Assembly (NCBI GenBank): GCA_002368865.1
Contig: DFDT01000171.1
Coordinates: 1-27,620, forward strand
DNA length: 27,620 nt
Direction: 5' to 3'
From: Lachnospiraceae bacterium UBA3821
GTDB taxonomy: Bacteria; Bacillota; Clostridia; Lachnospirales; Lachnospiraceae
The notes beneath the pieces are model-generated. The model did not search any database and had not been told where the DNA came from. It worked only from the letters and a program-made list of their open reading frames with translations. This document shows positions 10,859 through 27,304 of this stretch, piece after piece. How positions within the stretch are numbered: position 1 is the stretch's first letter; each line of letters starts with the position of its first letter. A program made the position numbers and the translations under genes.

Positions 10859-11986
10859 TTACTCGTACCGCACCGGCACGCTCACGCCATACTCTGCCAG
10901 CGCTGCCTCGAACACTGCAAAGAACGCCTTTACATCCGGCTCATCGATCGCACCCAGCGAACACAGCCGGAACATTCCCTTCTTCTCCACTTTGCCGGGA
11001 TAAATGGTAAAGCCTCTCTCATAACAGTAATCATGCACCTTCCCGAAATCCCAATTGGCGTCGTCCGGGTACAGCGCCGCTGCCACCAGTCCCGACGAAA
11101 TCTCATCTGGAACATAAATTCGGAAGCCCAACCGCTCCAGACCTCCTCTGAGTGCACGATATACCCGGAAATGCCTGTCCCATTTTGCCTGCTCCCCTTC
11201 GGCAAAATACTCCTTCAACGCCTGCCTGGTGGCGTAGATCACCTGCACAGGCGGCGTGAAATGCATCTCACCATGCTTCATAAAATAATCATATTGCAGA
11301 TATAGATTACAATAATAGGACCGCTTCGGATACTCTGCCGAAGCCTCGATCACACTCCGCCTGCCAATTATAAACGAAAGCCCCGTCACCGCCATGATGC
11401 CCTTCTGCGCGGAAGCCATGCAGAAATCAATGTTGTCCGCTTCGATATCAATGGGCCTCATCGCATAAGTGGACGTCGTATCCGTCACCAGGATCGCACC
11501 GTACCTGTGCGCCAGCGCGCCGATCTCCCGAACCGGATTCAGCAGTCCCGTACCCGTCTCATGATGAGTCACATACACCAACGCCACATCCGGATCCTCC
11601 TGTAACGCCTGCTCCACCGCAGCCAGGTCCGGCAGCCTGTCGATCGGCTGTTTCAGATTTATGTGATCCAATCCGTAATATTCACAGATTTCAACGGCTC
11701 TGCTGCTGTACGCGCCATTGTTGATGATCAACGCCTTTTTGTCCGCCGGCAAAAGCGAATTCAAGCAAATATCCAGGTTGATCGTTCCCGAACCGCAGAA
11801 CAGCACCGCCGCATAATCCTTGGGATCCGCATGCACGATCTTGAGCAACCCATCCTCAATCTCCCGCATGATCCCCACAAATTCCTTCTCCCGCGGGCAG
11901 ATATCCGGCACCACCTGCGCCAGCTTCACCGTGTCCGTAGTCGTAGCCGGACCGGGATTCAACAAAATATTCCGCTTGATCTCCAT
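10859..11986 (-). CDS. phnW: 2-aminoethylphosphonate-pyruvate aminotransferase
   Basis: This 375-residue fold-type I PLP enzyme has the usual family length. The LLNPGPATTT start, CGSGT at 64-68, HHETGTGLLNP near 141 and the PLP lysine in SAQKG (Lys195) are characteristic. Reaction: phosphonoacetaldehyde plus alanine gives 2-aminoethylphosphonate plus pyruvate when run in the biosynthetic direction. That direction is indicated by its operon with PEP mutase and phosphonopyruvate decarboxylase, and by the absence of a phosphonatase. The start is ATG at 11986, preceded by a duplicated AGAAGGGAAC element. The gap to pseB upstream is 106 bases. Confidence 0.94.
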   Translation of the reverse strand: MEIKRNILLNPGPATTTDTVKLAQVVPDICPREKEFVGIMREIEDGLLKIVHADPKDYAAVLFCGSGTINLDICLNSLLPADKKALIINNGAYSSRAVEICEYYGLDHINLKQPIDRLPDLAAVEQALQEDPDVALVYVTHHETGTGLLNPVREIGALAHRYGAILVTDTTSTYAMRPIDIEADNIDFCMASAQKGIMAVTGLSFIIGRRSVIEASAEYPKRSYYCNLYLQYDYFMKHGEMHFTPPVQVIYATRQALKEYFAEGEQAKWDRHFRVYRALRGGLERLGFRIYVPDEISSGLVAAALYPDDANWDFGKVHDYCYERGFTIYPGKVEKKGMFRLCSLGAIDEPDVKAFFAVFEAALAEYGVSVPVRYE

Positions 11987-11989
11987 CTG

Positions 11990-12011
11990 TATTGTTCCCT
12001 TCTGTTCCCTT
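11990..12011. repeat. 10-bp tandem duplication in the phnW ribosome-binding region
   Basis: TGTTCCCTTC is repeated head to tail just before phnW. On the minus strand this reads as two copies of AGAAGGGAAC, the nearer of which supplies the AGAAGGG purine tract about ten bases before the ATG at 11986. A third, partial copy (TGTTTCTC) follows. Confidence 0.75.
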
Positions 12012-12092
12012 CTGTTTCTCGATGTTTTTCCGTTTTATCTGTTTTCCCAACTCAACGCGATTTTGAATTTCACTTTGCCGTCGCACCCGGAC

Positions 12093-13091
12093 TTACTCAT
12101 GATGGTCCAGATCCGTCTTTAACAGTCTCCGGATATCCTCCACCGTCAGCCACTCCTTGTTTGTGCCGGAGCTGTAAATGAAGCCGGGCTCCACCAGTTT
12201 GCCGCCGGGGATCAGATAATCCGCGTTCCACCAGTTATAATTCGGATAAATGATATAATGCTTGTCATACTCATAGGTGCGCGCCGAATCCTCCTCCGGC
12301 ACCATCACCTCATGCAGCTTCTCACCTTCCCTGATGCCAACCTCCGGCATCTCACACCCGGGCAGCATCGCCTGAGCCAGATCCGTGATCTTGAAAGACG
12401 GGATCTTCGAGATAAACGTCTCACCGCCCCTGGACTCCTCCAACGCCTTGATCACAAGCTTTACCCCTTCCTCCAGACTGATCCAGAACCGCGTCATCCG
12501 GTAATCCGTGATTGGCAGCTCCTTCCCACCATTATCAATAATGTTCTGAAAAAACGGGATCACCGACCCGCGGCTGCCCGCCACATTCCCGTAACGCACC
12601 ACTGCAAACTTCGTGCCGTCCCCGCCGGAATAAGAATTCGCCGCCGCAAACAGTTTGTCGGAAACCATCTTCGTGGATCCGTACAGATTGATGGGGCTCA
12701 CAGACTTGTCCGTGGACAGCGCCACAACTTTCTTCACGCCGGTATCCAGGCAGGCATCGATCACATTGCAGGCTCCGTTGATATTGGTTTTGATCGCCTC
12801 GATCGGATTGTACTCACAGGCAGGCACCTGCTTTAGCGCCGCCGCATGGATCACATAATCCACACCCTGAAACGCTCTGGTCAGCCTCTCCTTATCCCGC
12901 ACATCTCCGATAAAGAAACGCAGCACCTTCTCATGTCCCTTGTACGCATTCTGCATATTGAACTGCTTGAACTCATCCCGGGAATAAATGATGATCTTCT
13001 TCGGCTGATAATGCGCCAGCACATAATCCACAAAATGATGTCCAAAGGAACCCGTTCCGCCAGTGATCAGAATCGTCTTATTATTCAGCAT
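12093..13091 (-). CDS. pseB: UDP-GlcNAc 4,6-dehydratase (inverting), PseB-like
   Basis: This 332-residue extended-SDR protein matches PseB/FlaA1 along its length. It has the NAD loop TGGTGSFG (10-17), IIIYSRDEFKQF, FFIGDVRDKERL, TDKSVSPINLYGSTK (127-141, with the catalytic Tyr137 and Lys141) and RMTRFWISLEEGVK. Known reaction: removal of water and C5 inversion of UDP-GlcNAc to a 4-keto-6-deoxy-L-sugar, the first step to pseudaminic acid and L-series amino sugars. The start is ATG at 13091 with GGAGAGAG upstream. A candidate promoter lies at 13151-13179, so this gene and the phosphonate genes may be transcribed separately from the upstream part of the locus. Confidence 0.94.
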   Translation of the reverse strand: MLNNKTILITGGTGSFGHHFVDYVLAHYQPKKIIIYSRDEFKQFNMQNAYKGHEKVLRFFIGDVRDKERLTRAFQGVDYVIHAAALKQVPACEYNPIEAIKTNINGACNVIDACLDTGVKKVVALSTDKSVSPINLYGSTKMVSDKLFAAANSYSGGDGTKFAVVRYGNVAGSRGSVIPFFQNIIDNGGKELPITDYRMTRFWISLEEGVKLVIKALEESRGGETFISKIPSFKITDLAQAMLPGCEMPEVGIREGEKLHEVMVPEEDSARTYEYDKHYIIYPNYNWWNADYLIPGGKLVEPGFIYSSGTNKEWLTVEDIRRLLKTDLDHHE

Positions 13092-13150
13092 ACTTTCTCT
13101 CTCCGTTCTTGTCTTGTTACCCTTTTCTTTCGGGAAACACTATATCTTGT

Positions 13151-13179
13151 AGTATAGCATATTTTTTGCCGGTTGTATA
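13151..13179 (-). promoter_or_regulatory. Candidate internal promoter before pseB
   Basis: In the 105-base spacer between the first CgeB-like gene and pseB, the minus strand has TATACA (13179-13174) and TATACT (13156-13151) with a 17-base spacer. No terminator is seen here, so it would be an additional promoter within the operon. Confidence 0.5.
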
Positions 13180-13196
13180 GAGATGGGAAGTTATCT

Positions 13197-14369
13197 TTAC
13201 AAACAGCTCAACATCTCCCGCACCCTGTGCCTGTACGTATGCTGCTCTTCTATCTTCCGAAATCCGTTCTCCGCGATCTGCTTCCGTTCTTCCTCATGGG
13301 CCAGATAATACGCGATCTTGTCCATCAGATCCGCCCTGCTCTCAAAATACACATAATCCTCTCCGGGCACAAAAAACTCCAGAAAATCCGACTGAAAATT
13401 CGTGAGCAGAAAACCTCCCGCCCCCATGATGTCAAATGCCCGAAGCGGCATCCCCGCCAGGATGCTGCGCAGCGAAATATTCAGATTGATCTTCGCTGTC
13501 TTAAATACATAGGGCGCCATATCATAATAATCCACCTTCCCGTGGTTCGTGCAACCCTTCATTCGGAAGCCCTGATCCGGGGTATACAGATCCAGACCGA
13601 ACCGCTCCGCAACCTCCCCCAGCAATTCCTTCCTCTCCATCGCCGTGATCTGTCTGTTGATCACATACTGCGCAAACAGATACTCCACGCTCTCCACACT
13701 GTCATGCCCCGGCGTCATGGGCAGAAACTGCCGCATATCCTCGATCAGCTCCGGATGCGCCTTCAGCGTTTCCTGCACAAAATTATACCCGTACACCTGC
13801 TTCTGCGCCGCCATCAAGCCTTCCAGATATCCCCGGGTATAGTCGCTGATTCCCGTCAACCGATCATAAAAGTTATGTTTTTCCGTATACATCGACCCGA
13901 TAAATGCCACTTCATGGACATTATACCACTGGGTTCCGCGAAACATCCCGAAATCCCGCATTGCACTCAGCCGCTCCGTATTCGCTGCCATAGGTAAGAA
14001 ATGCACCGTCTGGATCCCTGCCTCATGAAACTCTCTGTAAATCGAACTGTCAAACACAAACACATGGCTCGTAGGATATGCGACCGAATAATGATAAACT
14101 CTCACATATGGGCTGTCATAGATCCAGGACAGATAAGGCATCCCCAGCTCCTTACACGCCAGCGCCACCAACGGAAAAATATTAAACGAAAATACACAGT
14201 CTGACCCCGACTGCCCAAACTGTGATTTCAAATCCGCCACAGCCGCAGCTTCATTCTCCACGACTTCATCCGCATATGCAAGCTCCGCAACCTCATGCCC
14301 CTCCTTGCGAAACGCATCTATCACATCATCATTGCCCAAACTTTTCCATGTTAAAAATAAGATTTTCAT
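13197..14369 (-). CDS. CgeB-like glycosyltransferase, copy 1
   Basis: This 390-residue protein has the layout of CgeB-type GT-B glycosyltransferases. The N-terminal Rossmann half begins KILFLTWKSLGNDD and includes YLSWIYDSPY. The C-terminal half has PLRAFDIMGAGGFLLTNF and FFVPGEDYVYFESRADLMDK, the typical nucleotide-sugar-binding end. CgeB is known for spore-surface maturation, and homologues occur in flagellin and surface-glycan clusters. The likely role is transfer of a sugar in this locus; donor and acceptor are unknown. It is 31 bases downstream of a clear paralogue (14401-15567) with the same segment order, suggesting a tandem duplication with divergence. Confidence 0.82.
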   Translation of the reverse strand: MKILFLTWKSLGNDDVIDAFRKEGHEVAELAYADEVVENEAAAVADLKSQFGQSGSDCVFSFNIFPLVALACKELGMPYLSWIYDSPYVRVYHYSVAYPTSHVFVFDSSIYREFHEAGIQTVHFLPMAANTERLSAMRDFGMFRGTQWYNVHEVAFIGSMYTEKHNFYDRLTGISDYTRGYLEGLMAAQKQVYGYNFVQETLKAHPELIEDMRQFLPMTPGHDSVESVEYLFAQYVINRQITAMERKELLGEVAERFGLDLYTPDQGFRMKGCTNHGKVDYYDMAPYVFKTAKINLNISLRSILAGMPLRAFDIMGAGGFLLTNFQSDFLEFFVPGEDYVYFESRADLMDKIAYYLAHEEERKQIAENGFRKIEEQHTYRHRVREMLSCL

Positions 14370-14400
14370 CTACCTCACCGCCATGATCTTCACATGATCC

Positions 14401-15567
14401 TCAGATTTTTCCCTTCGCTGCCAACTCCAGGATCTCCCCAAACCTCTCCTGCAGAGCATATTCGGCAAACACCTTCTGCTGCCCACGCCCCACGATCTCC
14501 CGCCTCATATCCTCATGCTCCAAATAGAACCTGGCCTTTGCGAAAGCATCTTCCACACTCTCATATAATACCATTTCTTCCCCGTCTGCGAACTGCTCCG
14601 CCAATTCCGGCTGATAGTTGGAAAGCAGGAAGCCTCCTGCTCCCATCACATCCAGCGCCCGCAGGGGGATTCCACTCTGGATACAACGCAAAGACGGATT
14701 CAGATTGATCTTGGTACAGGCAAAAATCTTTGGCATCTCCTCCACATAGTCAACAGGCGGAAAACATTTCACTCCCTGCAGGACCGTACTGGATTGAAAA
14801 GAATAAAGTTTGGTATCAAAATAGCGTCCAAACAGCCCCAGCAATAACAGCCTCTCTTTTCTCGTAATCTCACTGGCCATTGCGAAGGTCATCGCCTCCC
14901 GCAGCAGTTGAAACGAAGTTTCGGGATGCTGTTCCTTGATATACTGGTTAATGCTCGTGATCACGCCCTCATTGATCATTTCATCAAACAGATAGGTACC
15001 ATACAGATCCTGCTGTATTGCAATCGCCGCGTCCAGATATCCCTGCGTGTACTCATCAGCTAATGCTCTGATCTCCTGATATCTTGATTCGTACAGACTT
15101 CCCACCAGCGACACTTCAGCTGCAAACCGCTTCCGTTCCCTGTCTGTGATCTGAAGTCTCTTCAGTCTATCCCTGTTCACACAAAGAGGCAGATAATGTA
15201 CTGTTTCAAATCCCGCTTTCACATACTGCTCCGTCTGGATCCGGTCAAAGAAGATCACCGTGTTCACCGGATTGCCCAATGTTTCCTCAATGCGCACCAC
15301 ATTCAAGGGATTGTCATAACACCATGCAATATATCTAATCCCGTTCCTCTGTGCCATTTGAGACAAAAGCGGCCAATAATTCACACTAAACAGCACATCA
15401 AACCGCTTTGTATCCACATGCTCCCCAAACCATTTTTCAAACGCCTCATCCACGTTTTTGTCCGTGAATTTCCATGCAAACTTCTCTACAGAAATCCCTT
15501 TCTCACGACACACCCACTCCACATCATACTGTAGATAGGATGGCCAGTCATACAATAAGATACGCAT
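14401..15567 (-). CDS. CgeB-like glycosyltransferase, copy 2
   Basis: This 388-residue protein is organised like its neighbour. The N-terminal half (RILLYDWPSYLQYDVEW, then IRYIAWCYDNPLNVVRIEE) is followed by a C-terminal half with IPLRALDVMGAGGFLLSNYQ and FADGEEMVLYESVEDAFAKA. The paired IPLRA-DVMGAGGFLL core is shared almost word for word with copy 1, while the N-terminal halves differ more, as expected if they use related donors on different acceptors. The start is ATG at 15567 with GGAGAAGG directly upstream, and it follows the LegC gene by 19 bases. Confidence 0.82.
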   Translation of the reverse strand: MRILLYDWPSYLQYDVEWVCREKGISVEKFAWKFTDKNVDEAFEKWFGEHVDTKRFDVLFSVNYWPLLSQMAQRNGIRYIAWCYDNPLNVVRIEETLGNPVNTVIFFDRIQTEQYVKAGFETVHYLPLCVNRDRLKRLQITDRERKRFAAEVSLVGSLYESRYQEIRALADEYTQGYLDAAIAIQQDLYGTYLFDEMINEGVITSINQYIKEQHPETSFQLLREAMTFAMASEITRKERLLLLGLFGRYFDTKLYSFQSSTVLQGVKCFPPVDYVEEMPKIFACTKINLNPSLRCIQSGIPLRALDVMGAGGFLLSNYQPELAEQFADGEEMVLYESVEDAFAKARFYLEHEDMRREIVGRGQQKVFAEYALQERFGEILELAAKGKI

Positions 15568-15586
15568 CTATCCTTCTCCGTCCAAA

Positions 15587-16741
15587 TTATCCTGTAACCA
15601 GTTTGATCTTCTCAGCCACGTACCGGATCTCCTCCGCTGTCAGATTCGTACTGCAAGGGATATTCACCACCCGTTCACTGTAATACTCTGCTCTTTCGAT
15701 CCGATAAGCCACTGCATCCGCATAGGGCTTCTGCCTGTGGATCAATCCCCAGATGGCACGCGATTGTACCCCTTCCTGCTGCAGCGCTTCTATCACCTCT
15801 CTTACGGTCTTTCCACACTTTTGCGCATCCAACACAACAGAATAAAACCACTTATTGGATGCCGTTCCCTTCCTGAACCCAAGCAACTCCACGGCCCCAC
15901 AATCCTGCAGCAGTTCCCGGTACAATGCATAATTCTGCTGTTTCCTACGGATAAATTCCGGCAGTTCCTCCAGCTGTGCAACCCCCAGGGCTGCCTGTAG
16001 ATTTGTCATCCGATAATTGTATCCCACCTCATTGTGCACATAATACTGCGCATCATCCTTTGCCTGCGTGGAGAGATAACGCATATGATCCACCGTCTCC
16101 TTATGATGCGCCGTGACCGCCCCGCCTCCGCCGGTGGTAATGATCTTATTTCCGTTAAATGAGAACGCTCCATAATCCCCGATGGTTCCGGCGTACTTTC
16201 CGGCATACTTACCTTCCGCATAAAACGTTCCCAATGCTTCCGTGGCATCCTCCACCACTTTCAGACGATACTGCTCCGCAATCTCCATAATAGATTCCAT
16301 ATCTGCCAGATTACCGAAAACATGCACTACCACAACTGCCTTCACAGGTTTTCCATGAAACCGCAGGACACCGTCTGCAACGACACACTCTTTCTCGCAG
16401 AATTCTTTCAGCTTGACCGAATCCATACACAGACTGTCATCACAGTCCATAAAAACCGGCTCAGCCCCAAGATATCTGACCGGATTCACCGCCGCAATAA
16501 AAGTGAGCGTCGGCACAATGACAACGTCACCGAAGCCCACACCGGCATCGATCAGGCTCAAATGGATTGCAGCCGTGCCACTCTGACATGCCGCCACGCC
16601 CTCCGCATAAAGAAAGTCTGCCAGATTCTCCTCCAGCCTGGTGATGAACGCGCCACCCGTGGAAACCCAGGTGGCATCGATTGCCTCATCTACATATTTC
16701 TTTTCATTTCCCTCAAAATTCGGAACCGATAACGGTATCAT
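15587..16741 (-). CDS. LegC-type sugar aminotransferase
   Basis: Using the ATG at 16741 (IPLSVPNFEGNEKKYVDEAI follows, with AAGGA upstream), this is a 384-residue DegT/DnrJ/EryC1-family PLP enzyme. It has VIVPTLTFIAAVNPVRYLGA, VVEDATEALG and the PLP-lysine segment SFNGNKIITTGGGG. The sequence style is that of LegC, which aminates C4 of the UDP-4-keto-6-deoxy sugar made by a LegB or PseB enzyme. An ATG 39 bases further upstream overlaps the previous gene and is less likely. Its downstream neighbours are the CgeB-like genes; upstream is the putative glycosyltransferase, with a 16-base gap. Confidence 0.9.
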   Translation of the reverse strand: MIPLSVPNFEGNEKKYVDEAIDATWVSTGGAFITRLEENLADFLYAEGVAACQSGTAAIHLSLIDAGVGFGDVVIVPTLTFIAAVNPVRYLGAEPVFMDCDDSLCMDSVKLKEFCEKECVVADGVLRFHGKPVKAVVVVHVFGNLADMESIMEIAEQYRLKVVEDATEALGTFYAEGKYAGKYAGTIGDYGAFSFNGNKIITTGGGGAVTAHHKETVDHMRYLSTQAKDDAQYYVHNEVGYNYRMTNLQAALGVAQLEELPEFIRRKQQNYALYRELLQDCGAVELLGFRKGTASNKWFYSVVLDAQKCGKTVREVIEALQQEGVQSRAIWGLIHRQKPYADAVAYRIERAEYYSERVVNIPCSTNLTAEEIRYVAEKIKLVTG

Positions 16742-16757
16742 ATTTCCTTCCCCCTCT

Positions 16758-17705
16758 TCAATCATCCCAGACTTCCACATATCCTCCGTTAAACTCCGGT
16801 TGGATTGCTTGCAGCATCTGCTTTGCCGTCAGCTTTTCCTGATACTCAGGATTATCAAACATGTTCTTATGATCCTCTCTCACAGACTGATTTTTTTCAA
16901 ATGAGATGGCGTCAAAATCCCTGCCTAACCATGTGAAATCCCGCTCAGATATGGTTTTCGGATCAAAAAACTCTGCTCCGAGCCGAAAAGAATGCCACTC
17001 CCTTAAGCGATACGACATCGTATAATTTAACGCGACGAACGTACCATAGGTTTCGAACTCACTGAATACACCCTCCTGCATCTGTTCCGGCGAAATCGCA
17101 TACAGGATTTTCTCCCAGAACTGCGTACCGTCAAAATCCGCATTTGACTCTATTCGGCTGATCAGATCCCGCATAATATCCTTTCGGAACAACATATGCT
17201 CCGAAATAAAGGACTTCTCAATCACCTTATGAAGCCCCGGCAGAAGCCTTCCCATGGTATCAAAATACTCTTGTTTCAGCTCTGTCTTCAGATCCAGATA
17301 AGGCACATCCGTACCCCCTTTGAACATATGGACTGTTCTGCACGGCACCGTATCCCCGTCCCAGGTCATATAATACTCATCTTCACAGAGTAACGCATAC
17401 CGCATCTTCAGAAACTGCTGATAATACCACCCCGTGATTCCCCGCGGCAACTCCTGACCTTTTAATATTCCGGCCAAACGCTTTTTCATCAGCTCATGCA
17501 CATCATGAAAAGGCAGAATGCTATCCTCATCTATCCAGTCGATATCACAGTGTTCCAATTTCTTTGCCATCTGCCCCACGGCACGATTGCCCACAAAGAT
17601 CAGTTTCCGACATTGTATATCCTGCAAAAGTCTATGATACAGATTACTGATCCGCGGAAAATCCTTCTCCGCCACCACAATGAGAACATCAAAATCCTCA
17701 GCCAT
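16758..17705 (-). CDS. Putative GT-A-like glycosyltransferase (DUF6492-like)
   Basis: This 315-residue protein has no strong named match from my reading. It starts like a GT-A glycosyltransferase (FDVLIVVAEKDFPRISNLY). GWYYQQFLKMRYALL (about 92-106) precedes EDEYYMTWDGDTVPCR, which contains a DxD-type metal site (Asp116, Asp118). This layout fits the DUF6492 family of presumed glycosyltransferases. The gene overlaps the stop of the LegG gene by eight bases and is followed by LegC, so it is part of the sugar operon. It probably transfers a sugar, but donor and acceptor are not known. Confidence 0.7.
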   Translation of the reverse strand: MAEDFDVLIVVAEKDFPRISNLYHRLLQDIQCRKLIFVGNRAVGQMAKKLEHCDIDWIDEDSILPFHDVHELMKKRLAGILKGQELPRGITGWYYQQFLKMRYALLCEDEYYMTWDGDTVPCRTVHMFKGGTDVPYLDLKTELKQEYFDTMGRLLPGLHKVIEKSFISEHMLFRKDIMRDLISRIESNADFDGTQFWEKILYAISPEQMQEGVFSEFETYGTFVALNYTMSYRLREWHSFRLGAEFFDPKTISERDFTWLGRDFDAISFEKNQSVREDHKNMFDNPEYQEKLTAKQMLQAIQPEFNGGYVEVWDD

Positions 17706-18879
17706 TTTTGTATCCCTCCACTCCTATATCGTAAAACACTTTTTTCAGATCTATATTCCCGGCGTTCACAACCTCCACAGCTTTTGTAGCGATCCGCTGT
17801 GCTGCATGCCCGTCCCCGTATGGCGAAACTACTTTCCTGCACACAGCCTTATGCGTATCACTCATCGCAAGCATTATGGCATCGATTATGTTCCCGCTTT
17901 CCGGGCCGCAGTTGATGATACTTTCGGATTGCAGCCGCCCTCTTTGTCTGTCGCCAATATTGACAGTCGGCACATGAAATGCCGGGGTCTCAATGATCCC
18001 ACTCGACGAGTTCCCCAGCACAAATTCCGCCGATCTCATCAGCGATAAATACCGACGAACCCCCAGTGATGTGAATACGTGAAGATTCGCAATCTTTTCG
18101 TCCGCTTCGTCAAGCAGAGCATTGATCCTTGCACCGCCCTGATCCGCGTTTGCCTTTGTTATGATAAACTGAATATCCGGAAAACTTTTGACGGCTGATA
18201 AAAGGTTATTCACCTGTTCCTCCACGTCTCCATCCTCATTGGTCACCGGATGATATGTACAGAGCGCATACCGGCACTCAGCCAAGCCTACACTTTCCAA
18301 CGCCTCCGCACGATCCATATCCGCCACGGTAATGATATTATCGATACTGGGGGAGCCAAAGTTGAACACCCGCTCCGGATTCTCTCCCAGCTGAATCACA
18401 CGTCTCCTGCTTTCCTCATTGGTGGTAAAGTGAAGATACGCAATCTTTGTGATGGCATGACGAATCCATTCATCCAGAGCGCCTTCTGTGGTATCACCTC
18501 CGGCAATATGAAAGACCGGCGTTCTCGTGTTTCCGGCAGCTATGGCAACCGCCAGCATCTCATACCTATCGCCGAGTAGCATGACTGCACTGTATTTCTC
18601 CGCGCCGAACAACTTTGTAAACTTTACCAAGACTTCCGCCTGATCATTCGATATACTATTGCAATCCGCAGAGTCTGTCGGGACGGGAATTTCATGATCT
18701 ATCCGATCTCCTGTCGCTTTGATTTCATCAACCGTATATCCAAATTCCCGGCTGAGATGGGTGCCGGAAACAATGAGTTCAACACGAAGCTCTTCACTTT
18801 CAAACTCTCTCAGCTCCTTTATGACGGGATGCATAAGACCATACTCCGCCCTTGTGGTCGTAACTACAGCAATCTTTTT
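17698..18879 (-). CDS. UDP-sugar 2-epimerase (hydrolysing), LegG/NeuC family
   Basis: I place the start at GTG 18879, giving 393 residues beginning KKIAVVTTTRAEYGLM, the exact family start, with AGGGA seven bases upstream. An in-frame ATG at 18897 would add six residues but lacks a comparable site. Family segments include VMLLGDRYEMLAVAIAAG, IAGGDTTEGALDEWIRHAI, FNFGSPSIDN and VLGNSSSGIIETPAF. Known reaction: C2 epimerisation and removal of UDP from a di-N-acetylated or N-acetylated sugar, giving the free sugar that NeuB-type synthases condense with PEP. No such synthase is in the window. Confidence 0.93.
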   Translation of the reverse strand, partial: KKIAVVTTTRAEYGLMHPVIKELREFESEELRVELIVSGTHLSREFGYTVDEIKATGDRIDHEIPVPTDSADCNSISNDQAEVLVKFTKLFGAEKYSAVMLLGDRYEMLAVAIAAGNTRTPVFHIAGGDTTEGALDEWIRHAITKIAYLHFTTNEESRRRVIQLGENPERVFNFGSPSIDNIITVADMDRAEALESVGLAECRYALCTYHPVTNEDGDVEEQVNNLLSAVKSFPDIQFIITKANADQGGARINALLDEADEKIANLHVFTSLGVRRYLSLMRSAEFVLGNSSSGIIETPAFHVPTVNIGDRQRGRLQSESIINCGPESGNIIDAIMLAMSDTHKAVCRKVVSPYGDGHAAQRIATKAVEVVNAGNIDLKKVFYDIGVEGYKNG

Positions 18880-18924
18880 CACGATAATTTCCCTCATTTT
18901 ATTTGCTTCTTTTGAATTCCCTGC

Positions 18925-20118
18925 TCATACAGCAAACAGCACATGGTCACACGGCCAAAGCCCCCTACCGTTGAACCTTAGGTAATAGGTATAATCCTCC
19001 CGCATACTGTCGATCAATCGAGGTATCTGAAAGAGATCCTCTGGCTTGTGATAAGTGGAGATCAAAAGTCTGGGTTTGTCCTCTGTGATATGACGCTTGG
19101 CGCCCTTCAATGCATCCTGCTCCGCGCCTTCGATGTCCATCTTGATCACAGTCACGGGCTCTTTGATATCCTCATCCAACGCCACCACGTCAACAGCTAC
19201 TTTACCATCAGAAGCCATCCGCGTACCAGCTTTATAGGAGTTTTCATCTATAAACATAGAACCGCTTGCGGCGCCTGCCCCCTTACGTCTGAATATAACG
19301 TCATCATATCCAGCCAGATTCTGCTTTGCCTGCTCTATGATCTCGGGGGAAATCTCATAGCAATAGATTCGCCTGTATTTTCCTCCATAAATCTCCAGAT
19401 AATCCATCACGGTATCACCAATATAAGCGCCGCAATCCACAAAAACTTCCTTCTCATCACAGTCCAACAGATCCAGATCAAAATAATCCCTGTAAATATT
19501 CTCATGAAGATCATTTAGATCATTCGTATCAAATGTAAACCAAAACCGTACGATCCGCAGCAGAATCTGTTTGGACTTATAATCCGCAAGCCTCTCATAT
19601 AACCATCTGAAATTTTCAATCTCCCGTTTCATCATATCCACATAGGCAACAATCAGAGAGTAATCCTCCCGCTCCACGTCTATTGTCCCTGTCAAAAAAG
19701 GATATATCTGGGGAAGCATTGCAAACTGCGGTTTGTATTCCTCTGGGTAAGAGTTAAAAAGAGCTATGGTATTCTCTACAATAATGTCCCTGTCCACATA
19801 ACAGAAATACTCGTAAATCGCCCAAAATTCACTGTCAATCTTCTTCCCACTCCGACGCTCCATGCTAAGCTTCCAGACAGGCAGCATTCCTTTGATTTCC
19901 GCACACCCCCCCTTATCCCCTTGCCAGTCGGAATTGATACACTCCAGATTGATTTCCTGAGACAGATAAAGCTGCCAGTTTAACTGTCTTGCCGTAACAG
20001 CCAAAACCTCCTCTATACTGGAAGACAGTTCTCCTCCCTCGGCGCGCTCCACCAGCGCTTCCACATTCGATATGATTTCTGCGAGTTCATTCAATGTTTT
20101 TGTATTTAGATAACGCAT
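18925..20118 (-). CDS. FkbM-family methyltransferase with a long N-terminal extension
   Basis: With the start at ATG 20118 (RYLNTKTLNELAEIIS follows; GAGGT seven bases upstream), this is 397 residues. Two other in-frame ATGs further upstream (20154, 20148) are possible but less well placed. The C-terminal half holds the SAM-binding motif VFVDCGAYIGDTV (about 226-238), IYCYEISPEI, and the FkbM segment VTVIKMDIEGAEQDALKGA. The first 220 or so residues are a helical region outside the normal methyltransferase core. It is the first gene of the glycan operon and probably O-methylates a sugar. It lies 35 bases after the terminator at 20177-20214, and I see no convincing promoter of its own. Confidence 0.88.
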   Translation of the reverse strand: MRYLNTKTLNELAEIISNVEALVERAEGGELSSSIEEVLAVTARQLNWQLYLSQEINLECINSDWQGDKGGCAEIKGMLPVWKLSMERRSGKKIDSEFWAIYEYFCYVDRDIIVENTIALFNSYPEEYKPQFAMLPQIYPFLTGTIDVEREDYSLIVAYVDMMKREIENFRWLYERLADYKSKQILLRIVRFWFTFDTNDLNDLHENIYRDYFDLDLLDCDEKEVFVDCGAYIGDTVMDYLEIYGGKYRRIYCYEISPEIIEQAKQNLAGYDDVIFRRKGAGAASGSMFIDENSYKAGTRMASDGKVAVDVVALDEDIKEPVTVIKMDIEGAEQDALKGAKRHITEDKPRLLISTYHKPEDLFQIPRLIDSMREDYTYYLRFNGRGLWPCDHVLFAV

Positions 20119-20176
20119 GATTTTTACCTCTGCCACTACCTCATTCATTACCATTTATATCTCTTGTCCATCAAAA

Positions 20177-20214
20177 AACCGTATTCTATGGTAAGAATAC
20201 CATAAAATACGGTT
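20177..20214 (-). terminator. Terminator of the RADAR cassette
   Basis: A long A/T-rich stem, AACCGTATTCTATGGTA (20177-20193) with TACCATAAAATACGGTT (20198-20214), has one interior mismatch pair and a four-base loop. On the minus strand it is followed by TTTTTT (20178-20173). It lies 51 bases after the rdrB stop and separates the cassette from the glycan operon. A smaller inverted repeat, AAAGGA/TCCTT, lies between it and the stop (about 20226-20242). Confidence 0.9.
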
Positions 20215-20265
20215 CTATGCAAATTAAAGGAACGCTCCTTAACATAAAATATTACTTTGTGTAGA

Positions 20266-22860
20266 TTAGACAAAATCATTCCCTTTCTTGTCAAATCTTA
20301 TTTTAAATCCATTTTGGCGAATATGCTCCAAATATTCATATATTTGCTCATCATTATAATTTTGGGATTTGTGCCTTTGCCTTCGTATTGCACTTAATAA
20401 CAACGCATATTCATAGCTCAGAGATGTATCAAACACACCTAAGTCATCTGTATTGACAGAAACCATAATCTGCGAATGCGTACTATCTGGATCGAGTTTA
20501 TAATCGCAAAATTCCAGGATTGGATGCTGATCATAGTTTGTAAAATATCCAATCAGCCGGTTAGACGTAGGATTGCATTCTATCGCAATTCCTTTTTTAG
20601 CAATGATATTACAGCGCATATACTCCTGCATTTCTTTCATCAGATTTTCATACCATGGTTTTATCTCTATCGGAACCACTTCCAATCCCTTCAATTTGAC
20701 ATTTTTGTCAAATTGGTATCTATAATACAAGTTGGCAATCTCGTCATCTTTCCTATAAAAACTCTCGTTTTTATTCCTCGTACAATACGAATGATATGGA
20801 TATGCCTCATGCAAATAATTATCTAGATACTTTCCCGATCTATATAAATCAGGATGATCCCCCCGCAAATGCCAACTACGGTAGAATGCTTCCAAGTCAT
20901 TCATACTTCTTCCGGCACTACCCCCGCCATATATCTCATCAATCAACTGATATGCCCTCTGCCTCAAACGTTCTCGCGCCGAGGTCTCCAGATGAATCCC
21001 CCATTCCAACGTCCGAAACAAAAGCCATATACAGTTATCCAGATAATCCTGCTTTGTTAAGTATACATGTCGAAACCGACTTTTATAGTAGCTTTGTGGA
21101 TCAATCCCCATAACCATGCCATGACCTATCCGATCGGCATTGTTCAATTCCAAAAACTCTATGGCCTCATCCACTGCCCGCAATCCATCGCAAATATCTA
21201 AAAAATCCTCTCCGACATGATATGTGATTCCTAAATCCCCCTTTTCACTACATCTTGTCCAATACCTGCTTCCCTCTGAATATCTGTTGCTTCCACGCAA
21301 AAAACGAAATTCCGTAGCAAAGGTTTCAGGCCGACATCCAATTTCACTTGAACACGCATCTATTCCACGCAACCTTGCCTGCAGACTATTTCCATCTTCT
21401 CCTCTGACGCTTTGATAATTATGGCGAAAAAAGTAAATTGCCCTGGCCTGTTTATATATTAAATTACGAAGTTTCCAGTTTCTTGGGCGCAGAACAAACA
21501 TCCCTGTCTGTTTTACCTCTTTCTCCGTAAAAGGACTTTTGGCAAAATGAGTCACATAGAATACTTTTGAACAATCTTCTTTAGAACTCTTCTTAATGAG
21601 CAGATCATTATTGCTGATATACCCTGCCATTTTACCCGCACTCTTCTCCGGCATAATCCTCGCTTCCAAAGACACAATGTGGTTTTCCTGAATCGTTGAA
21701 CAAACAGCAAGCCTTTGCGCCTCTGCTATATATTCCGGAATTCTGTAAAACTGACGTTTTCTATTCTGATATTGCTGAAAATTATGAAAACCATTTCTTT
21801 GATTTGTCTGAATCAATTCGCCCCTGAAATTACTCTTAATCAAAAGATATAAATAAAATATTGATTTTTCAAAGTTTGTGAATTTATTTCTATAAATACG
21901 GGTAAAACACTCATATAGAAAAGCTCTTTCCGCTGACAGCAACCGATTATAGGATTCCGCTTTCAATGCGTACAGCTTTGTACTCATTACATAGTCCAGA
22001 CATCTGCCTTTGGGAGTCTTACATACTTTGGCTCCATAAAACATACGAAGACAATCCACTGCATATATAATACTGTCGTGGTTCTGGAAACGATCATATG
22101 CCATAAAATCTTTCTTAACCCCGGACTCCTCAGAAACTCCTATACAACGCTCGAACAGTAATGCGCGGATAAATGCAGCATACCGCAGCCACTTCGTCCA
22201 TCGCTCTTCATTTGTGATAGAAATATCAGTCTTAGCATCCTCAAGATTTCTTTCAAATCGTTGGCTCTCCCGCAAAGTCTTATATATCGTTTTCGGATGA
22301 TTCATCAGTGCTGCCCATGAAAGCGCAAAGGACTGGGATGATCCGCCCAAATGAAAGTGATTTTCTGCCAATCCGTTTTCCAGCATCTTATTTAATCTTA
22401 AATCGTCTGTACGAATACAATATGGCCAGTCAAAAGACTGTGTGCATGTGCTGGTTCCACTTTTGCGCACATCGCCATGCGCCAGCCATGATGTCACTAT
22501 AAGATCCTGCCCCAGCCTTGCCGTAATCGAATTCCATCCCAATATCTCGTCTATTTTACACAATGGCTCATGATTCTTATACAGCAACACTCTGTCGCCG
22601 TATTGATGAAGCAGTCCGAATACTGAGTCACCTGAATCCTTCCACTGCTTTTGCATCTGTTTAAATCGCATATGTATTTCATCACCGGAATATCCCTTTA
22701 ATTCATCCTTCCCATAATAGTCGTACCACTCAAATGAACCTATTTCGTAAGGACGAGTTTCTTTAAATTTCCCGTTATACAAGTTCCTTATTTCTCCGAG
22801 AACATCCTCCGGTGTCCTCTTTCTGAAGATAATATCCAGATTTTCTCTATCCTGATGCAT
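20266..22860 (-). CDS. rdrB: RADAR adenosine deaminase-fold subunit RdrB
   Basis: This 864-residue protein is far longer than the roughly 350 residues of a metabolic adenosine deaminase, as expected for RdrB. The full metal and catalytic set is visible in order: HFH (168-170), HVGE (548-551), NADRIGHG (574-581), ECNPTSN (761-767) and TDD (804-806). Known role: in RADAR, RdrB forms large cage-like assemblies and deaminates adenosine, reported on RNA and on ATP/dATP, to stop phage growth, working with the ATPase RdrA. The long region between the HxH and HxGE motifs (about 380 residues) is the family insertion. It starts 17 bases after rdrA with only a weak ribosome site, and its ending points to co-expression from the cassette. 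Confidence 0.9.
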   Translation of the reverse strand: MHQDRENLDIIFRKRTPEDVLGEIRNLYNGKFKETRPYEIGSFEWYDYYGKDELKGYSGDEIHMRFKQMQKQWKDSGDSVFGLLHQYGDRVLLYKNHEPLCKIDEILGWNSITARLGQDLIVTSWLAHGDVRKSGTSTCTQSFDWPYCIRTDDLRLNKMLENGLAENHFHLGGSSQSFALSWAALMNHPKTIYKTLRESQRFERNLEDAKTDISITNEERWTKWLRYAAFIRALLFERCIGVSEESGVKKDFMAYDRFQNHDSIIYAVDCLRMFYGAKVCKTPKGRCLDYVMSTKLYALKAESYNRLLSAERAFLYECFTRIYRNKFTNFEKSIFYLYLLIKSNFRGELIQTNQRNGFHNFQQYQNRKRQFYRIPEYIAEAQRLAVCSTIQENHIVSLEARIMPEKSAGKMAGYISNNDLLIKKSSKEDCSKVFYVTHFAKSPFTEKEVKQTGMFVLRPRNWKLRNLIYKQARAIYFFRHNYQSVRGEDGNSLQARLRGIDACSSEIGCRPETFATEFRFLRGSNRYSEGSRYWTRCSEKGDLGITYHVGEDFLDICDGLRAVDEAIEFLELNNADRIGHGMVMGIDPQSYYKSRFRHVYLTKQDYLDNCIWLLFRTLEWGIHLETSARERLRQRAYQLIDEIYGGGSAGRSMNDLEAFYRSWHLRGDHPDLYRSGKYLDNYLHEAYPYHSYCTRNKNESFYRKDDEIANLYYRYQFDKNVKLKGLEVVPIEIKPWYENLMKEMQEYMRCNIIAKKGIAIECNPTSNRLIGYFTNYDQHPILEFCDYKLDPDSTHSQIMVSVNTDDLGVFDTSLSYEYALLLSAIRRQRHKSQNYNDEQIYEYLEHIRQNGFKIRFDKKGNDFV

Positions 22861-22877
22861 TACTCTACCTACTTCTT

Positions 22878-25448
22878 CTATTTTCCCTGTACATTTTTTA
22901 TCTGTTCTTGGATCAGATTTTTTATTTCCAAAGCTTTCTTCTCGCGACTCTCACTGTTTTCTCCACTATCTGCCTTAACCATCACATTATACTCCTGAAT
23001 CTGCTTCAGCAATCCTTCCACTGCTTCATCCATTTTTTCGATTTTATCATCTTTCGTTAACCCGCATATCAAATCTATGAAAGCCTTATCGCTGGACAAC
23101 GAAATCATTGCATTTTGCAAATCCATTGGAGCATTTATAATTTCATTGGATTCATCCGGATTTATCGTAGTCGTCACATTTTGGTATTCTGCGAAAGTCT
23201 TTTCCCAAATATCCTTATATACCCCCGCAAATAAATCCCCAAATGCGCTCCCCAGTTTCTGTTTTTCAAGACGTTCCCTGATACTCTCCCAGAAAAACAA
23301 TGAGTAATACCCTCTCCCATCTTGATATACCTTGAACCAGTAATCACCAACTGAACTCATAGGCCCGGCTGTTATACCCAGATATTTGATATTATACGAA
23401 TCTAAATTGAAACACAAAAAAATGTTTTGGTAGATTTCAGACAATCTCGAAAATGCAATAAGCGAGATTCTGGAAAACTCCTGTGCGATTTTCTCCGTAA
23501 TACATTGAGTTATCTCATAATTTGCCAGCAAGTTCTTCATTCCAATCAGTAGACTTGTCCGTTCTACATGCGCAGCTTCCTTTAAGTCACCATTTCCTTT
23601 TTCTGTTGCCGAACTGTCTACCGAAGTATCCGTGATTAACTCTTTTTTTCCATCCGCTGCTTTCTCATTTATTAGTGCATCCATCTCATAAAATGCGTTT
23701 AACATAGTACCCGGAATATCAAATTTCCAATTATCCTTAGCGATGTTTTTACAGAATGCAAGAGTGGATTTTGCATCTACCGCTCCGGTATTTGTGTTTG
23801 GTCCCTCTCCAAATCTGAAGGATAAAAATTGTAACTTAAACATACCAATTCTGGTAGAACTTCTGACCTTATTCTTCGCAATTTCTTTTATATCGCTCAC
23901 TTTCAAAATATCACATCGCTCAATAATTGCATTTCTAAACGAATCTGCCAAAGAAGTGAATGCTTCCCGCTTACCAACACATTCCGCGAACCTGCTGTTG
24001 ACTAATATGGAATAGAGAATTGAATATGCACTGCGCAATTTGAAGCTGTTTTGAATATTCTTCTCAATTTCCGGCAATATCTGCATATTCCCCTCATCAT
24101 AAATCGCATCATCTTTTGACTTTTCTATGATAATAAGTTCATCTTTTGTCAGGTTATTTTTGCACCAAAAATTCCAAAAGTATTGCTCCATGATATCCAG
24201 ATTGTGCAATAAATTTTTTGTGTCTTGACATTTGTCAACATATGCCCTTTCAAAGTCTATCACCGGCATACCTCTCAGCATTTTCACAAAATGTGTCAGT
24301 TCACGTATCGTTTTGGGTAAAACATCATGTAATGTGAAATCGTGTTTGAAGAAGATTAGTCCAGTGCGTTCATAAAGCGCGCGCAATAGTTGTTCCTGTA
24401 TATCGCTACACTGTTCGGCATACTCCGCAAACAGATCACGCTCCTCAATATCCTTATATACCAGCTTCAATGTTTTAAATTTACTTTTAATGAAGGATTC
24501 CATTTCGGGAAGCTCCATTCTGTGTCCAAAAGGAAACATTTTCTCAACATATCTGCTGCCCATTTCCTCACAATCCTTCAGATATGTGTCATGCAAGAAC
24601 GCCTTAGATGTTGTTATCAACTCATGATATTTTTTAATATATTCCTGTGTAATTGCATTCGTCAATTGTTTTATATCAGCAGCCATAAAGACTATCACAT
24701 TAGGCAATGAAAAATAATTCCGAATATCTTCACACATTTTGAAGACACCGTCTAATGCCATATCTGAATCGTCTATCTGTATAATCAAAAAATTGTATTC
24801 ACCCTTTTTCCCATAGCGGGACTGAAAATCAAGGAATTTTTTGACTAAATCTTCTAGATTTTTGCGCAATTTATTACTGCTGCCCAATTGATTCAGCAAT
24901 TCCAAGTCATCCATACCAAAATCATCTTTATTCTCTTTTACGGAATAATCCACGTTATGAAAACAATTTTCAAAACATTGCATCAACCCTGATCTGTCTG
25001 ACCTGATTCTGTCTTCTGCATCCTCATCCGCGTTGTCCTTATAATAGTTTTCTATCGATACCGTCGCTTCATTAAATAATTTGGATATCATAACACGAAT
25101 AATAGACTCCTCTGATCTCAAAGAAGACGGATCAATTGAACTGAGCACATAAAACTTTTTTCCACCCAACACGTCCTTTTCAGCATCCCTCAGGTAATAG
25201 GAAAATGTCTGCATGGCACTGGTCTTGCCCTGACCACGATGTCCACAAAAAGCAATAATGTTATTCCCAATTCGATATTGTCGTCCATCTTTTTCTTCTT
25301 TTGGACGATTCTGATCTGCATGGTCTACCAATTCACCTAATACGCCTAATGCCTCCTGATAAACCTCATGAAAGAAAGCCTCTTTCTCAGATACTTTTCC
25401 GATTCGTGCCCTGTATTCATCACCTTGTCTGATTTCAATTGTACTCAT
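22878..25448 (-). CDS. rdrA: RADAR ATPase subunit RdrA
   Basis: This 856-residue P-loop NTPase has the Walker A segment GHRGQGKTS (residues 69-77). It has a Walker B-like LIIQIDDSDM (221-230, acidic Asp226/Asp227), followed by NVIVFMAADIKQL, a sensor-1-like strand. This is the STAND/KAP-type layout expected for RdrA. The rest is helical with no membrane segment. Known role: in RADAR, RdrA is the ring-forming ATPase that docks on RdrB and is needed for defence; the phage trigger is not settled. The start is ATG at 25448, and its AAGGAG overlaps the stop of the upstream gene, so the two are coupled in translation. Assignment rests on partner, length and motifs together. Confidence 0.88.
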   Translation of the reverse strand: MSTIEIRQGDEYRARIGKVSEKEAFFHEVYQEALGVLGELVDHADQNRPKEEKDGRQYRIGNNIIAFCGHRGQGKTSAMQTFSYYLRDAEKDVLGGKKFYVLSSIDPSSLRSEESIIRVMISKLFNEATVSIENYYKDNADEDAEDRIRSDRSGLMQCFENCFHNVDYSVKENKDDFGMDDLELLNQLGSSNKLRKNLEDLVKKFLDFQSRYGKKGEYNFLIIQIDDSDMALDGVFKMCEDIRNYFSLPNVIVFMAADIKQLTNAITQEYIKKYHELITTSKAFLHDTYLKDCEEMGSRYVEKMFPFGHRMELPEMESFIKSKFKTLKLVYKDIEERDLFAEYAEQCSDIQEQLLRALYERTGLIFFKHDFTLHDVLPKTIRELTHFVKMLRGMPVIDFERAYVDKCQDTKNLLHNLDIMEQYFWNFWCKNNLTKDELIIIEKSKDDAIYDEGNMQILPEIEKNIQNSFKLRSAYSILYSILVNSRFAECVGKREAFTSLADSFRNAIIERCDILKVSDIKEIAKNKVRSSTRIGMFKLQFLSFRFGEGPNTNTGAVDAKSTLAFCKNIAKDNWKFDIPGTMLNAFYEMDALINEKAADGKKELITDTSVDSSATEKGNGDLKEAAHVERTSLLIGMKNLLANYEITQCITEKIAQEFSRISLIAFSRLSEIYQNIFLCFNLDSYNIKYLGITAGPMSSVGDYWFKVYQDGRGYYSLFFWESIRERLEKQKLGSAFGDLFAGVYKDIWEKTFAEYQNVTTTINPDESNEIINAPMDLQNAMISLSSDKAFIDLICGLTKDDKIEKMDEAVEGLLKQIQEYNVMVKADSGENSESREKKALEIKNLIQEQIKNVQGK

Positions 25449-25459
25449 CCATTTTCTCC

Positions 25460-27304
25460 TTAACTATGTGCATTCATATTATACTTCATGTATTCATCCA
25501 CATATCTATTTTTCTCTTCTTCAAATTCATACTGTTGTTCTATATATTCCCGTTGTGTCTGATACTCATAAGAAACCTTTTCATAATAACTGCCGCCCCA
25601 ATCCTTGATCGTCTGCCCCACCTTAGCAATAAGATCAATAAACTCAATCAGTTCCTCCATTTTTTCGGATCCGATACTGCTATATTTTGACGCGGCAAAT
25701 GCTCTTAGATGAGCATAATAATCTCTGTTGAAGTTTTTGCACCAGTCATAGGCAATACATAAAAAAGACACATACTGAAGATTTCTTAATGGCTTTATTA
25801 ACAACGACTGCTCTCCTGCTTTGGCAAATTGTGCGTAGCCCACAACCCTCAAACCTTTAGCTGTGTGTGATGAAAGCGATAAGACACCAACATCCATCAT
25901 AAGCAAAAAAATCGAAATCATATATTTCACATTTTCACTTGTATTCTGATCCATCAGCCTTTTGAGCAGAAAGCAGCAATTCTTCACCATACGATTAGTC
26001 ACACCTTGCTGCTGACTCGGCATACCATTATATAACACAGCCTCCCTTTCTTCATAATATCCCTGTTCATAAAAACAATCCTCCAACCGGTTTCGCATAG
26101 ACTCGTTATCAGAAAAATGCATTCCCAATTTCATTATCGGCCTATTGTGATTACATGCTAAAAGGATTTCTGATAATTGATCTACCCCTTCAAAAATCGG
26201 AGCCTCTTCTATACATTTTTTGAGATAACCGATATGGTCTTCCGTTTGATCAAATCGATAATTTCTTCCTAATTTAACAATTTCGCGATTAAGCAAATCT
26301 TTTCTTTCATCTGAAATCGTTATATTATACTTCATATTGAAATCACGTAATATCGCATTACTGATTATCAATGAAACCCATTCATTAAAAGCTCTTTTCC
26401 CGTTTACCTGATATAATCCCTTTAATTTAGCTATAAAACCAGCCGGATACTGTTTCGCAATACATAATTCTTCTATGCGTTTTAAAAGTATTCCCGTCTC
26501 TCCGTCATCCAAGTTAGGCATAAAAACAAAAGGAATCACACGATAAAAATTTTCAGCTTTATTTTTTAATATTCTAAGGGAGTACACGGCATATACATAT
26601 TCTTCTGGATTTTTCAAAAACTCAACCTTGATACATCCCTCAAGATTTTGAAATACCTGCCGCTTATATCCGACACCTTCCTCACTATGGATTATCCTCT
26701 CATATTCATCTCTAAATATCACTTCGGAATTAATGTATGTGGCATTAGCAACTCCAGATTCGACAATGAGCGAAGAAATATGTCCTGACAATTCACGCCA
26801 TTTTAACGGCTCATACTTTACAATATATCTGGCATCATTCATATATCTTGTTTTCAGCAATAGGTGCTTATTTTCCGCATAGCAGTACACTCTGATCTGA
26901 ATCGCATCTGCCAATGCCTGATGAATAGTATCCTTATCTTCTTCACCAAGCAACTCTTCTAAGCGTTCTTCTACATTTTCAATTACACGATTGAGATTTC
27001 GTCCATGAATAAGCGTATCATCGCACAATCTTATCTTGGGGAACCGCCCATTTTCTCTATAAAAATCTGCTAGTTCCGGACAGCACGACAAAAAAGCCGA
27101 ATCCGTCACATATTTCTTATCCTCGGAGTCAACCATATTAATACCGGTGATTTGTTCTAATATAACTGATAAAATATAGCTTCTGCGAACAACAAAGACC
27201 ACATATTGAACCTGTGCCTCAATACTCTCCGTATACCATTTGGAGAGTCCATCCAAGTCCCCTGAGCCAAGCCTTCTAATCGCCAAAGCCCTTAAATCGT
27301 TCAT
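25460..27304 (-). CDS. RADAR-associated protein of unknown function with phosphoribosyltransferase-like segment
   Basis: I do not recognise this 614-residue protein as a named family. Near the N-terminus, VVFVVRRSYILSVILEQITG (34-53) is followed about 40 residues later by IRLCDDTLIHGRNLNRVI (91-108). The pair resembles the arrangement in type I phosphoribosyltransferases, where an acidic DD and a glycine loop bind PRPP; here the loop is DDTLIHGRN. The middle is mostly helical, and the C-terminal 40 residues are strongly charged and likely coiled (QREYIEQQYEFEEEKNRYVD). There is no clear membrane helix. It is the first gene of the cassette, 11 bases before rdrA, and its stop overlaps the rdrA ribosome site. 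The function could be sensing or nucleotide handling; this is inference. Confidence 0.75.
   Translation of the reverse strand: MNDLRALAIRRLGSGDLDGLSKWYTESIEAQVQYVVFVVRRSYILSVILEQITGINMVDSEDKKYVTDSAFLSCCPELADFYRENGRFPKIRLCDDTLIHGRNLNRVIENVEERLEELLGEEDKDTIHQALADAIQIRVYCYAENKHLLLKTRYMNDARYIVKYEPLKWRELSGHISSLIVESGVANATYINSEVIFRDEYERIIHSEEGVGYKRQVFQNLEGCIKVEFLKNPEEYVYAVYSLRILKNKAENFYRVIPFVFMPNLDDGETGILLKRIEELCIAKQYPAGFIAKLKGLYQVNGKRAFNEWVSLIISNAILRDFNMKYNITISDERKDLLNREIVKLGRNYRFDQTEDHIGYLKKCIEEAPIFEGVDQLSEILLACNHNRPIMKLGMHFSDNESMRNRLEDCFYEQGYYEEREAVLYNGMPSQQQGVTNRMVKNCCFLLKRLMDQNTSENVKYMISIFLLMMDVGVLSLSSHTAKGLRVVGYAQFAKAGEQSLLIKPLRNLQYVSFLCIAYDWCKNFNRDYYAHLRAFAASKYSSIGSEKMEELIEFIDLIAKVGQTIKDWGGSYYEKVSYEYQTQREYIEQQYEFEEEKNRYVDEYMKYNMNAHS

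Follow-up and report, generated by a model that had tools for sequence, protein, structure and literature searches.

A third gene precedes rdrA and rdrB in a divergent RADAR operon

We analyzed the entire contig DFDT01000171.1 (27,620 nt; hereinafter the window) from the assembly GCA_002368865.1 of Lachnospiraceae bacterium UBA3821, in which rdrA and rdrB, the genes of the bacterial anti-phage system RADAR, usually known as a two-protein one, are preceded by a gene for a large protein that we provisionally name RdrP. Taken together, the family, structural and linkage evidence presented below makes it very probable that RdrP is a third component, with a phosphoribosyltransferase (PRTase) fold, of a lineage of RADAR systems. 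The operon comprises the following:

25460..27304, minus strand: gene for the 614-aa PRTase-like protein RdrP (open reading frame [ORF] listing, 57 + 19 relatives, AlphaFold2 model)
22878..25448, minus strand: rdrA, 856 aa (PADLOC and NCBIfam matches, Walker motifs)
20266..22860, minus strand: rdrB, 864 aa, adenosine deaminase (PADLOC, NCBIfam and Pfam matches, deaminase motifs)
25456..25461, minus strand: AAGGAG, a Shine-Dalgarno-like site of rdrA overlapping the RdrP TAA (from the sequence)

The RdrP ORF runs from an ATG start to a TAA stop on the same strand as rdrA and rdrB, and the three genes form a compact operon in the order RdrP, rdrA, rdrB, with gaps of 11 nt (RdrP stop to rdrA ATG) and 17 nt (rdrA to rdrB). 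Because the 11-nt gap is accompanied by an AAGGAG that overlaps the RdrP stop codon and whose 3′ end lies 7 nt ahead of the rdrA ATG, coupled translation of RdrP and rdrA appears plausible. The initial annotation of this DNA, which had described a 614-residue gene with the segment DDTLIHGRN sharing an operon with rdrA, is borne out on these points, the segment being residues 95–103; its placement of this gene as the first of the operon is correct on this contig, but the contig ends only 316 nt further upstream. Among relatives of the locus (see below), the nearest same-strand upstream ORF of at least 70 aa is at least 480 nt away in L001, L004, L005 and L007, the nearest upstream ORF of that size lies on the opposite strand in L002, L003 and L008, and none was called in L006.

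RdrA matches the PADLOC RdrA model (1.7e-19) across residues 28–334 and shows a Walker A motif (GHRGQGKT) and a Walker B-like motif (IIQIDDSD); RdrB matches the PADLOC RdrB model (3.4e-29) and the Pfam A_deaminase model (9.8e-10) and retains the deaminase motifs HFHLG, TYHVGED, DRIGHG and NTDD. The NCBIfam scores lie below the equivalog cut-offs (RdrA: 88.4 vs 600 bits; RdrB: 167.1 vs 800 bits), which are annotation thresholds and no biological feature. Since both proteins fall so far under them, the RADAR of the window is, as judged from its sequences, a divergent lineage distinct from the described equivalogs, and one that the curated NCBIfam cut-offs overlook. Like other RADAR loci, the window has adjacent rdrA and rdrB genes with ATPase and deaminase motifs; it differs in the addition of a large PRTase-like gene ahead of rdrA. 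In the excerpts to which our use of this and the other PMC sources is confined, the known RADAR subtypes are rdrAB, Csx27-associated and SLATT-associated (PMC7699616), and the extra genes that they name are Csx27 and SLATT (PMC7699616, PMC11676413), as had been noted at the outset. No PRTase in a RADAR operon is mentioned in the excerpts of PMC9994260, PMC12548924, PMC13092281, PMC7699616, PMC9122126 and PMC11676413; nor was one found in the open-licence PMC literature, a scope that leaves most subscription papers outside, so that its absence from print is unproven.

RdrP typifies a family that no library model names

As a single sequence, RdrP matched no named family in Pfam (best E 0.062, DED), PADLOC, NCBIfam or the PDB, and the earlier description of the gene as unrecognised thus holds for the three family libraries among these. 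A protein search with RdrP returned itself and 57 relatives with BLASTP identities of 30–57% and a coverage of at least 91% for all except P0010 and P0058; a search with a homologue from Sarcina returned 19 proteins, the Sarcina protein included, of a second subfamily with ~17–20% identity to RdrP. Because of these 57 relatives and the second subfamily, we conclude from sequence conservation that the RdrP ORF is not a chance one. The family totals 77 proteins (P0001–P0077), of which 76, including RdrP, were aligned with omission of the fragment P0010; alignment A1 comprises 56 proteins and A4 adds 20 more, the mixed alignment A4 having 25 members.

Scans of the wider family likewise gave no name. 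No Pfam PRTase model matched at its cut-off in scans of RdrP, A1 (among the best 25 of 37 families) or A4; PF00156 in particular was seen in a single one of 56 members (E 0.021) and in none of the 25 of the mixed alignment. We read as chance the scattered Pfam matches to HetE-N (0.00037; 1 of 56 members only) and to a UBP24-type ARM (0.0001), 2CompART (0.001) and PBP_dimer (0.001), each confined to a single one of 25 members. PADLOC at E ≤ 0.1 yielded single-member matches only among the 25 (RT_X, 0.05; JetA, 0.062). A profile search of the PDB gave eight sequences at E ≤ 10, the best being a SAVED protein (0.029, residues 87–166), and the A4 profile gave zero PDB matches. PRTase-CE (PF24390), which carries a PRTase-type loop and occurs in conflict-type genes, was considered as the closest relative and rejected: it had no Pfam match to RdrP (E ≤ 1), to the 25 members of A4 or among the best 25 of 37 A1 families, and three PRTase-CE proteins (from three of four loci) produced no meaningful profile alignment with RdrP. 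What RdrP and PRTase-CE have in common is the PRTase-type loop, as PRTase-CE is generally described.

The N-terminal region has a predicted PRTase-like core with altered loops

The N-terminal part of RdrP contains the following segments, the loops being named for phosphoribosyl pyrophosphate (PRPP) and pyrophosphate (PPi):

26756..27280, minus strand: PRTase-like core, residues 9–183 (Foldseek and VIA-align to PDB PRTases; strand and helix order of the model)
26990..27031, minus strand: PRPP-loop-like segment, residues 92–105, with C-D-D-x-L-I-H-G-R-N (column counts, register test)
27173..27193, minus strand: PPi-loop-like segment, residues 38–44 (column counts)

In the AlphaFold2 model of RdrP (predicted local distance difference test score, pLDDT, 92.5), residues ~9–183 resemble type I PRTases, which occupy the 22 highest-ranking Foldseek rows, with weak E-values of 0.014 at best, as well as 49 of the 50 listed VIA-align rows; hypoxanthine-guanine PRTases rank among the top structural hits. 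The predicted structure hence has the core fold of this family, whose absence would have spoken against the initial annotation, and DDTLIHGRN falls, by profile register, at the PRPP loop, in the type I PRTase context that had been proposed for it. For the register, we used 36 PRTases as positives (39 ORFs found by PRPP-motif pattern less 3 taken as non-PRTases), of which 19 form one HPRT-like cluster, so that many are close kin, and as negatives 100 ORFs from the same loci, with 8 PRT-like ORFs excluded. Local profile alignments of 28 of the 36 PRTases covered the DDTLIHGRN loop (26 matching the register of the PRPP motif exactly, 2 shifted) and 8 missed it, as against 5 of the 100 unrelated ORFs that covered the segment at all. 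The profile–profile scores themselves are weak (best E 0.0019, most >0.01), and it is the register, not the score, that we use as evidence. With single sequences, all PRTase alignments were weak (the best, to a PyrR-like protein, at E 0.0019), L055, L058 and L066 having been dropped from that panel for want of a usable frame or motif. The mixed profile, meant to lead on to other PRTases, recovered 57 proteins and no new one.

Across the 76 aligned members the PRPP-loop-like segment is nearly invariant: positions 95 and 96 are acidic and G101 is present in all 76, and H100 and R102 are each found in 73. R40 and R41 of the PPi-loop-like segment are each conserved in 75 of 76. In the mixed alignment of 25 members, 46 columns are conserved at ≥90%, and 7 of these lie in the two loops (21 residues) where 1.6 are expected (p=0.0004, with loop borders fixed after the alignment had been viewed). 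RdrP accordingly shares with type I PRTases (HPRT, OPRT, UPRT, PyrR) the core fold, the two adjacent acidic residues of the PRPP loop and the position of the PPi loop. It departs from them in two loop signatures, the 5′-phosphate loop of consensus T/S-G-x-T/S and a PPi loop with a glycine: in place of the former it has H-G-R followed by N, G, S or A, and position 42, which we take to be that of the PPi-loop glycine, is S, C, A or M in 76 of 76 members, so that this loop is placed by position. It further differs by ~430 extra C-terminal residues. On the strength of sequence and model, and because T-G-x-T is replaced by H-G-R, we call RdrP PRTase-like and do not file the protein as a type I PRTase enzyme.

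These loops bear on what the protein may do. One possibility, which we regard as somewhat unlikely, is that RdrP is a second effector, an active or repurposed PRTase that would consume PRPP or alter purines after RADAR fires and block the rebuilding of ATP from inosine nucleotides. The almost invariant acidic pair and PPi-loop arginines speak for it, as do the hypoxanthine-guanine PRTases among the best structural matches; against it stand H-G-R-N/G in place of T-G-x-T, S/C/A/M in place of the PPi-loop glycine, the lack of any Pfam PRTase model at cut-off, and helices at residues 68–85 of the model, at the place taken by the flexible catalytic loop in salvage PRTases. Because the loops of standard catalysis have changed whereas the acidic pair and the residues beside it are retained, we favor a sensor-regulator over an effector, and the departures from T-G-x-T and the PPi-loop glycine point to binding rather than standard catalysis. 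Less probable again is a related proposal by which RdrP would be a non-canonical phosphoribosyl-transferring enzyme that uses its H-G-R loop to burn PRPP or to build a phosphoribosyl signal from the purines that RdrB produces.

RdrP homologues adjoin rdrA in every locus recovered

A scan of a genome contig collection with the single protein confirmed none of five stretches, and a profile scan of the same collection yielded eight loci from 58 candidate stretches. Their hosts are Roseburia, Lachnospiraceae (3), Eubacterium (2), Sarcina sp. DSM 11001 and a Muribaculaceae metagenome-assembled genome, the last on an 8.5-kb contig of uncertain binning. In all eight, rdrA is directly next to the RdrP homologue, and rdrB follows in all seven in which the contig continues; the contig of L007 includes just the first 77 codons of the following gene, and these look like the beginning of rdrA (E 4e-6 against the window RdrA in a small comparison set). 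RdrB from these loci is 31–45% identical to that of the window. The linkage of homologues to rdrA and rdrB on which the initial annotation had staked its proposal is therefore present throughout, and its suggestion of a new RADAR variant agrees with a PRTase-like third gene linked to rdrA in all the loci recovered. In Sarcina sp. DSM 11001 (L008:5897-7900) the gene encodes a distant form of the second subfamily (up to 667 aa) and is accompanied by an rdrA-rdrB pair of its own; coming from a named DSM strain, this locus offers a practical test case.

An order-level RdrB search matched 24 of 392 genomes: the window's own, 14 with RADAR-size frames and 9 others with frames of ≤397 aa that are plain adenosine deaminase-like. 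The 14 RADAR-like loci, identified by similarity to the window RdrA and RdrB, contain no ORF that matches the RdrP family profile at E ≤ 1; 13 of them are informative, the contig of L043 ending before the DNA upstream of rdrA. The PADLOC RdrA/RdrB models matched 7 of 8 proteins scanned from the comparison loci, and the RdrA-position protein of L038 matched only mad8 (7.4e-5), making L038 less sure as a RADAR locus. A second RdrB search of 378 genomes and whole-genome searches with the RdrP family profile (1/397 at family level, 1/398 at phylum level) returned the window's own genome only. The RdrP family was confirmed in none of 61 stretches from a viral contig collection and matched nothing in plasmid and phage collections; there is no sign in the searched collections of RdrP traveling on phages or plasmids.

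In an RdrB tree of 22 loci, the window and the seven other RdrP carriers with rdrB form one group (support 100/99), the deeper forks being partly open (5 of 19 inner branches) and L008 a long branch. Because those seven were found through RdrP itself, loss of RdrP within the group is poorly tested; members lacking it could surface only in the RdrB searches, and none did.

Some of the comparison loci have other genes at or near this position. Two related RADAR loci (L039:5845-7179 and L041:5842-7218) carry genes for TPR proteins of 444 and 458 aa, 57–61 nt ahead of rdrA, which have a common N-terminal segment (BLASTP 2e-4), with Pfam TPR over cut-off in L041 only; these may represent a further third component of RADAR, of another kind, at this position. 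In L038 (8251-8892, minus strand) a DUF6088 gene (Pfam 1.5e-5) lies 63 nt ahead of the rdrA-like gene, and in L042 (7372-9982, minus strand) the rdrA region is split between ORFs of 364 and 502 aa, and this copy therefore looks broken.

The C-terminal part, the upstream DNA and the surroundings of the operon

Outside the PRTase-like core, two further features were delineated:

25463..26755, minus strand: C-terminal region, residues 184–614 (AlphaFold2 of the region alone)
25784..26104, minus strand: possible winged-helix domain, residues ~401–507, containing D471-x-G473 and K495-x-G497

The C-terminal region folds independently in prediction (pLDDT 92.2; predicted template modeling score, pTM, 0.91) and had no PDB match at E ≤ 0.001; the winged helix near residues 401–507 is weakly supported. 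D471-x-G473 and K495-x-G497-E498, which lie outside the PRTase-like domain, are among the most conserved residues of the family (76/76 each; E498 75/76), and W569 is likewise among those conserved in the C-terminal part. These residues bear on an improbable alternative, that RdrP is a structural adaptor, in which a degenerate and ligand-free PRTase fold would attach to RdrA so as to recruit or position a further factor. K495-x-G497-E498 and W569 would suit such a role, as would PRTase loops that are off consensus; the near-invariant acidic pair and H-G-R across 76 proteins are hard to explain without a ligand.

Winged helix-turn-helix–PRTase regulators pair a winged helix with a PRTase domain, and in Bacillus PurR the winged helix acts on DNA and the PRTase-like pocket serves as the effector site. 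PurR holds the same domain pair in one chain as is proposed for RdrP; on general knowledge of PurR, RdrP differs in having the order reversed, in being much longer and in its unrelated context. By analogy, RdrP could be a transcriptional regulator of its own operon, its winged helix binding the upstream DNA, which we consider the least probable of the alternatives. The possible winged helix and the first position of RdrP in the gene set accord with it, as do the ~270–609 nt that separate its start from the closest ORF called upstream in L001, L003, L005, L007 and L008; small opposite-strand ORFs are, however, much nearer or overlapping in L002 and L004. A comparison of nine leaders gave no signal of a conserved RNA, DNA or peptide upstream of RdrP. 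In the window itself one promoter-like site was found (27550-27522) where 1.7 are expected, which is no more than chance. The 614 aa with a long conserved middle part are also large for a repressor, and no loss of RdrP was seen in its group, for which the tree holds only 8 loci, 7 of them found via RdrP.

We also considered retron III-A1, typical members of which carry PRTase/winged-helix effector genes (PMC12548924). Such an operon would hold a reverse transcriptase and an ncRNA; in the window, rdrA and rdrB lie downstream of RdrP and there is no Rfam match, the DNA covered upstream of RdrP being 316 nt.

Downstream, the operon is followed by this feature:

20175..20216, minus strand: 19-bp hairpin with a 3′ T run after rdrB, a likely transcription terminator (fold stability)

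The hairpin has a fold z-score of −8.7, none of 200 shuffles being equally stable, and went unreported by a consensus terminator scanner. It likely separates the three-gene operon, as a terminator, from an FkbM methyltransferase gene. Beyond it the operon adjoins a cluster of the polysaccharide/flagellin-glycosylation type at window positions 10859-20154 (Polysacc_synt_2, DegT, Epimerase_2, glycosyltransferases, FkbM), near which lies a FliD_C gene (5759-7126).

RdrP as a possible sensor-regulator of RADAR

As had been supposed from the start, RdrP may sense nucleotide pools, supply a signal or act on inosine products. PyrR and Bacillus PurR are regulators that have a PRTase fold and bind PRPP or nucleotides, and we tentatively favor, with a probability of roughly 0.4, a comparable role in which the PRTase-like pocket makes RdrP a sensor-regulator of RADAR. 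The pocket at the acidic/H-G-R site would bind a phosphoribosyl ligand, either PRPP or a purine nucleotide that shifts in infection, the C-terminal part would relay the ligand state to RdrA and/or a nucleic acid, and RdrP would thereby license RdrA-RdrB for the conversion of ATP/dATP to inosine and deoxyinosine triphosphates (ITP/dITP), acting like PyrR or Bacillus PurR rather than as a salvage enzyme. RADAR makes ITP/dITP during infection, and the Escherichia coli RdrB produces ITP in vitro by itself, with RdrA raising its activity (PMC9994260); because this RdrB needs no aid to make ITP, a function of RdrP in sensing or control is the more likely. How RADAR senses phages is unsettled in the same source, in which RdrA "may control sensing".

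The structural and profile scores for PRTase likeness are weak in absolute terms, and the off-consensus loops and conserved C-terminal residues discussed above would also fit an adaptor. The PRTases of other defense systems, among them a DprA–PRTase pair that we presume to be ShosTA-like, are precedents. Type III-A1 retrons provide one with a PRTase/winged-helix effector (PMC12548924), and the DprA–PRTase pair, which defends against T7 and lambda, another in which the PRTase is proposed as the effector (PMC9122126). As these favor a second effector, our preference for the sensor-regulator over that role is not large. Likened by description only, both systems likewise combine, within one anti-phage operon, a PRTase and a partner that is either of the winged-helix/DNA-binding type or DprA (PMC12548924, PMC9122126); they differ in that theirs are separate proteins partnered with a reverse transcriptase or DprA, whereas RdrP is one chain with rdrA-rdrB.

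Were RdrP the non-canonical enzyme considered above, RADAR in this lineage would be a two-enzyme circuit of purine collapse or signaling, with ATP deamination and the chemistry of PRPP each strengthening the other. As a large third subunit whose pocket is of the nucleotide type, RdrP may provide a direct handle either on RADAR sensing or on a second nucleotide-poisoning arm. RdrP joins retron III-A and DprA–PRTase as a PRTase fold in phage defense, and would allow the role of defense PRTases to be tested in a new setting.
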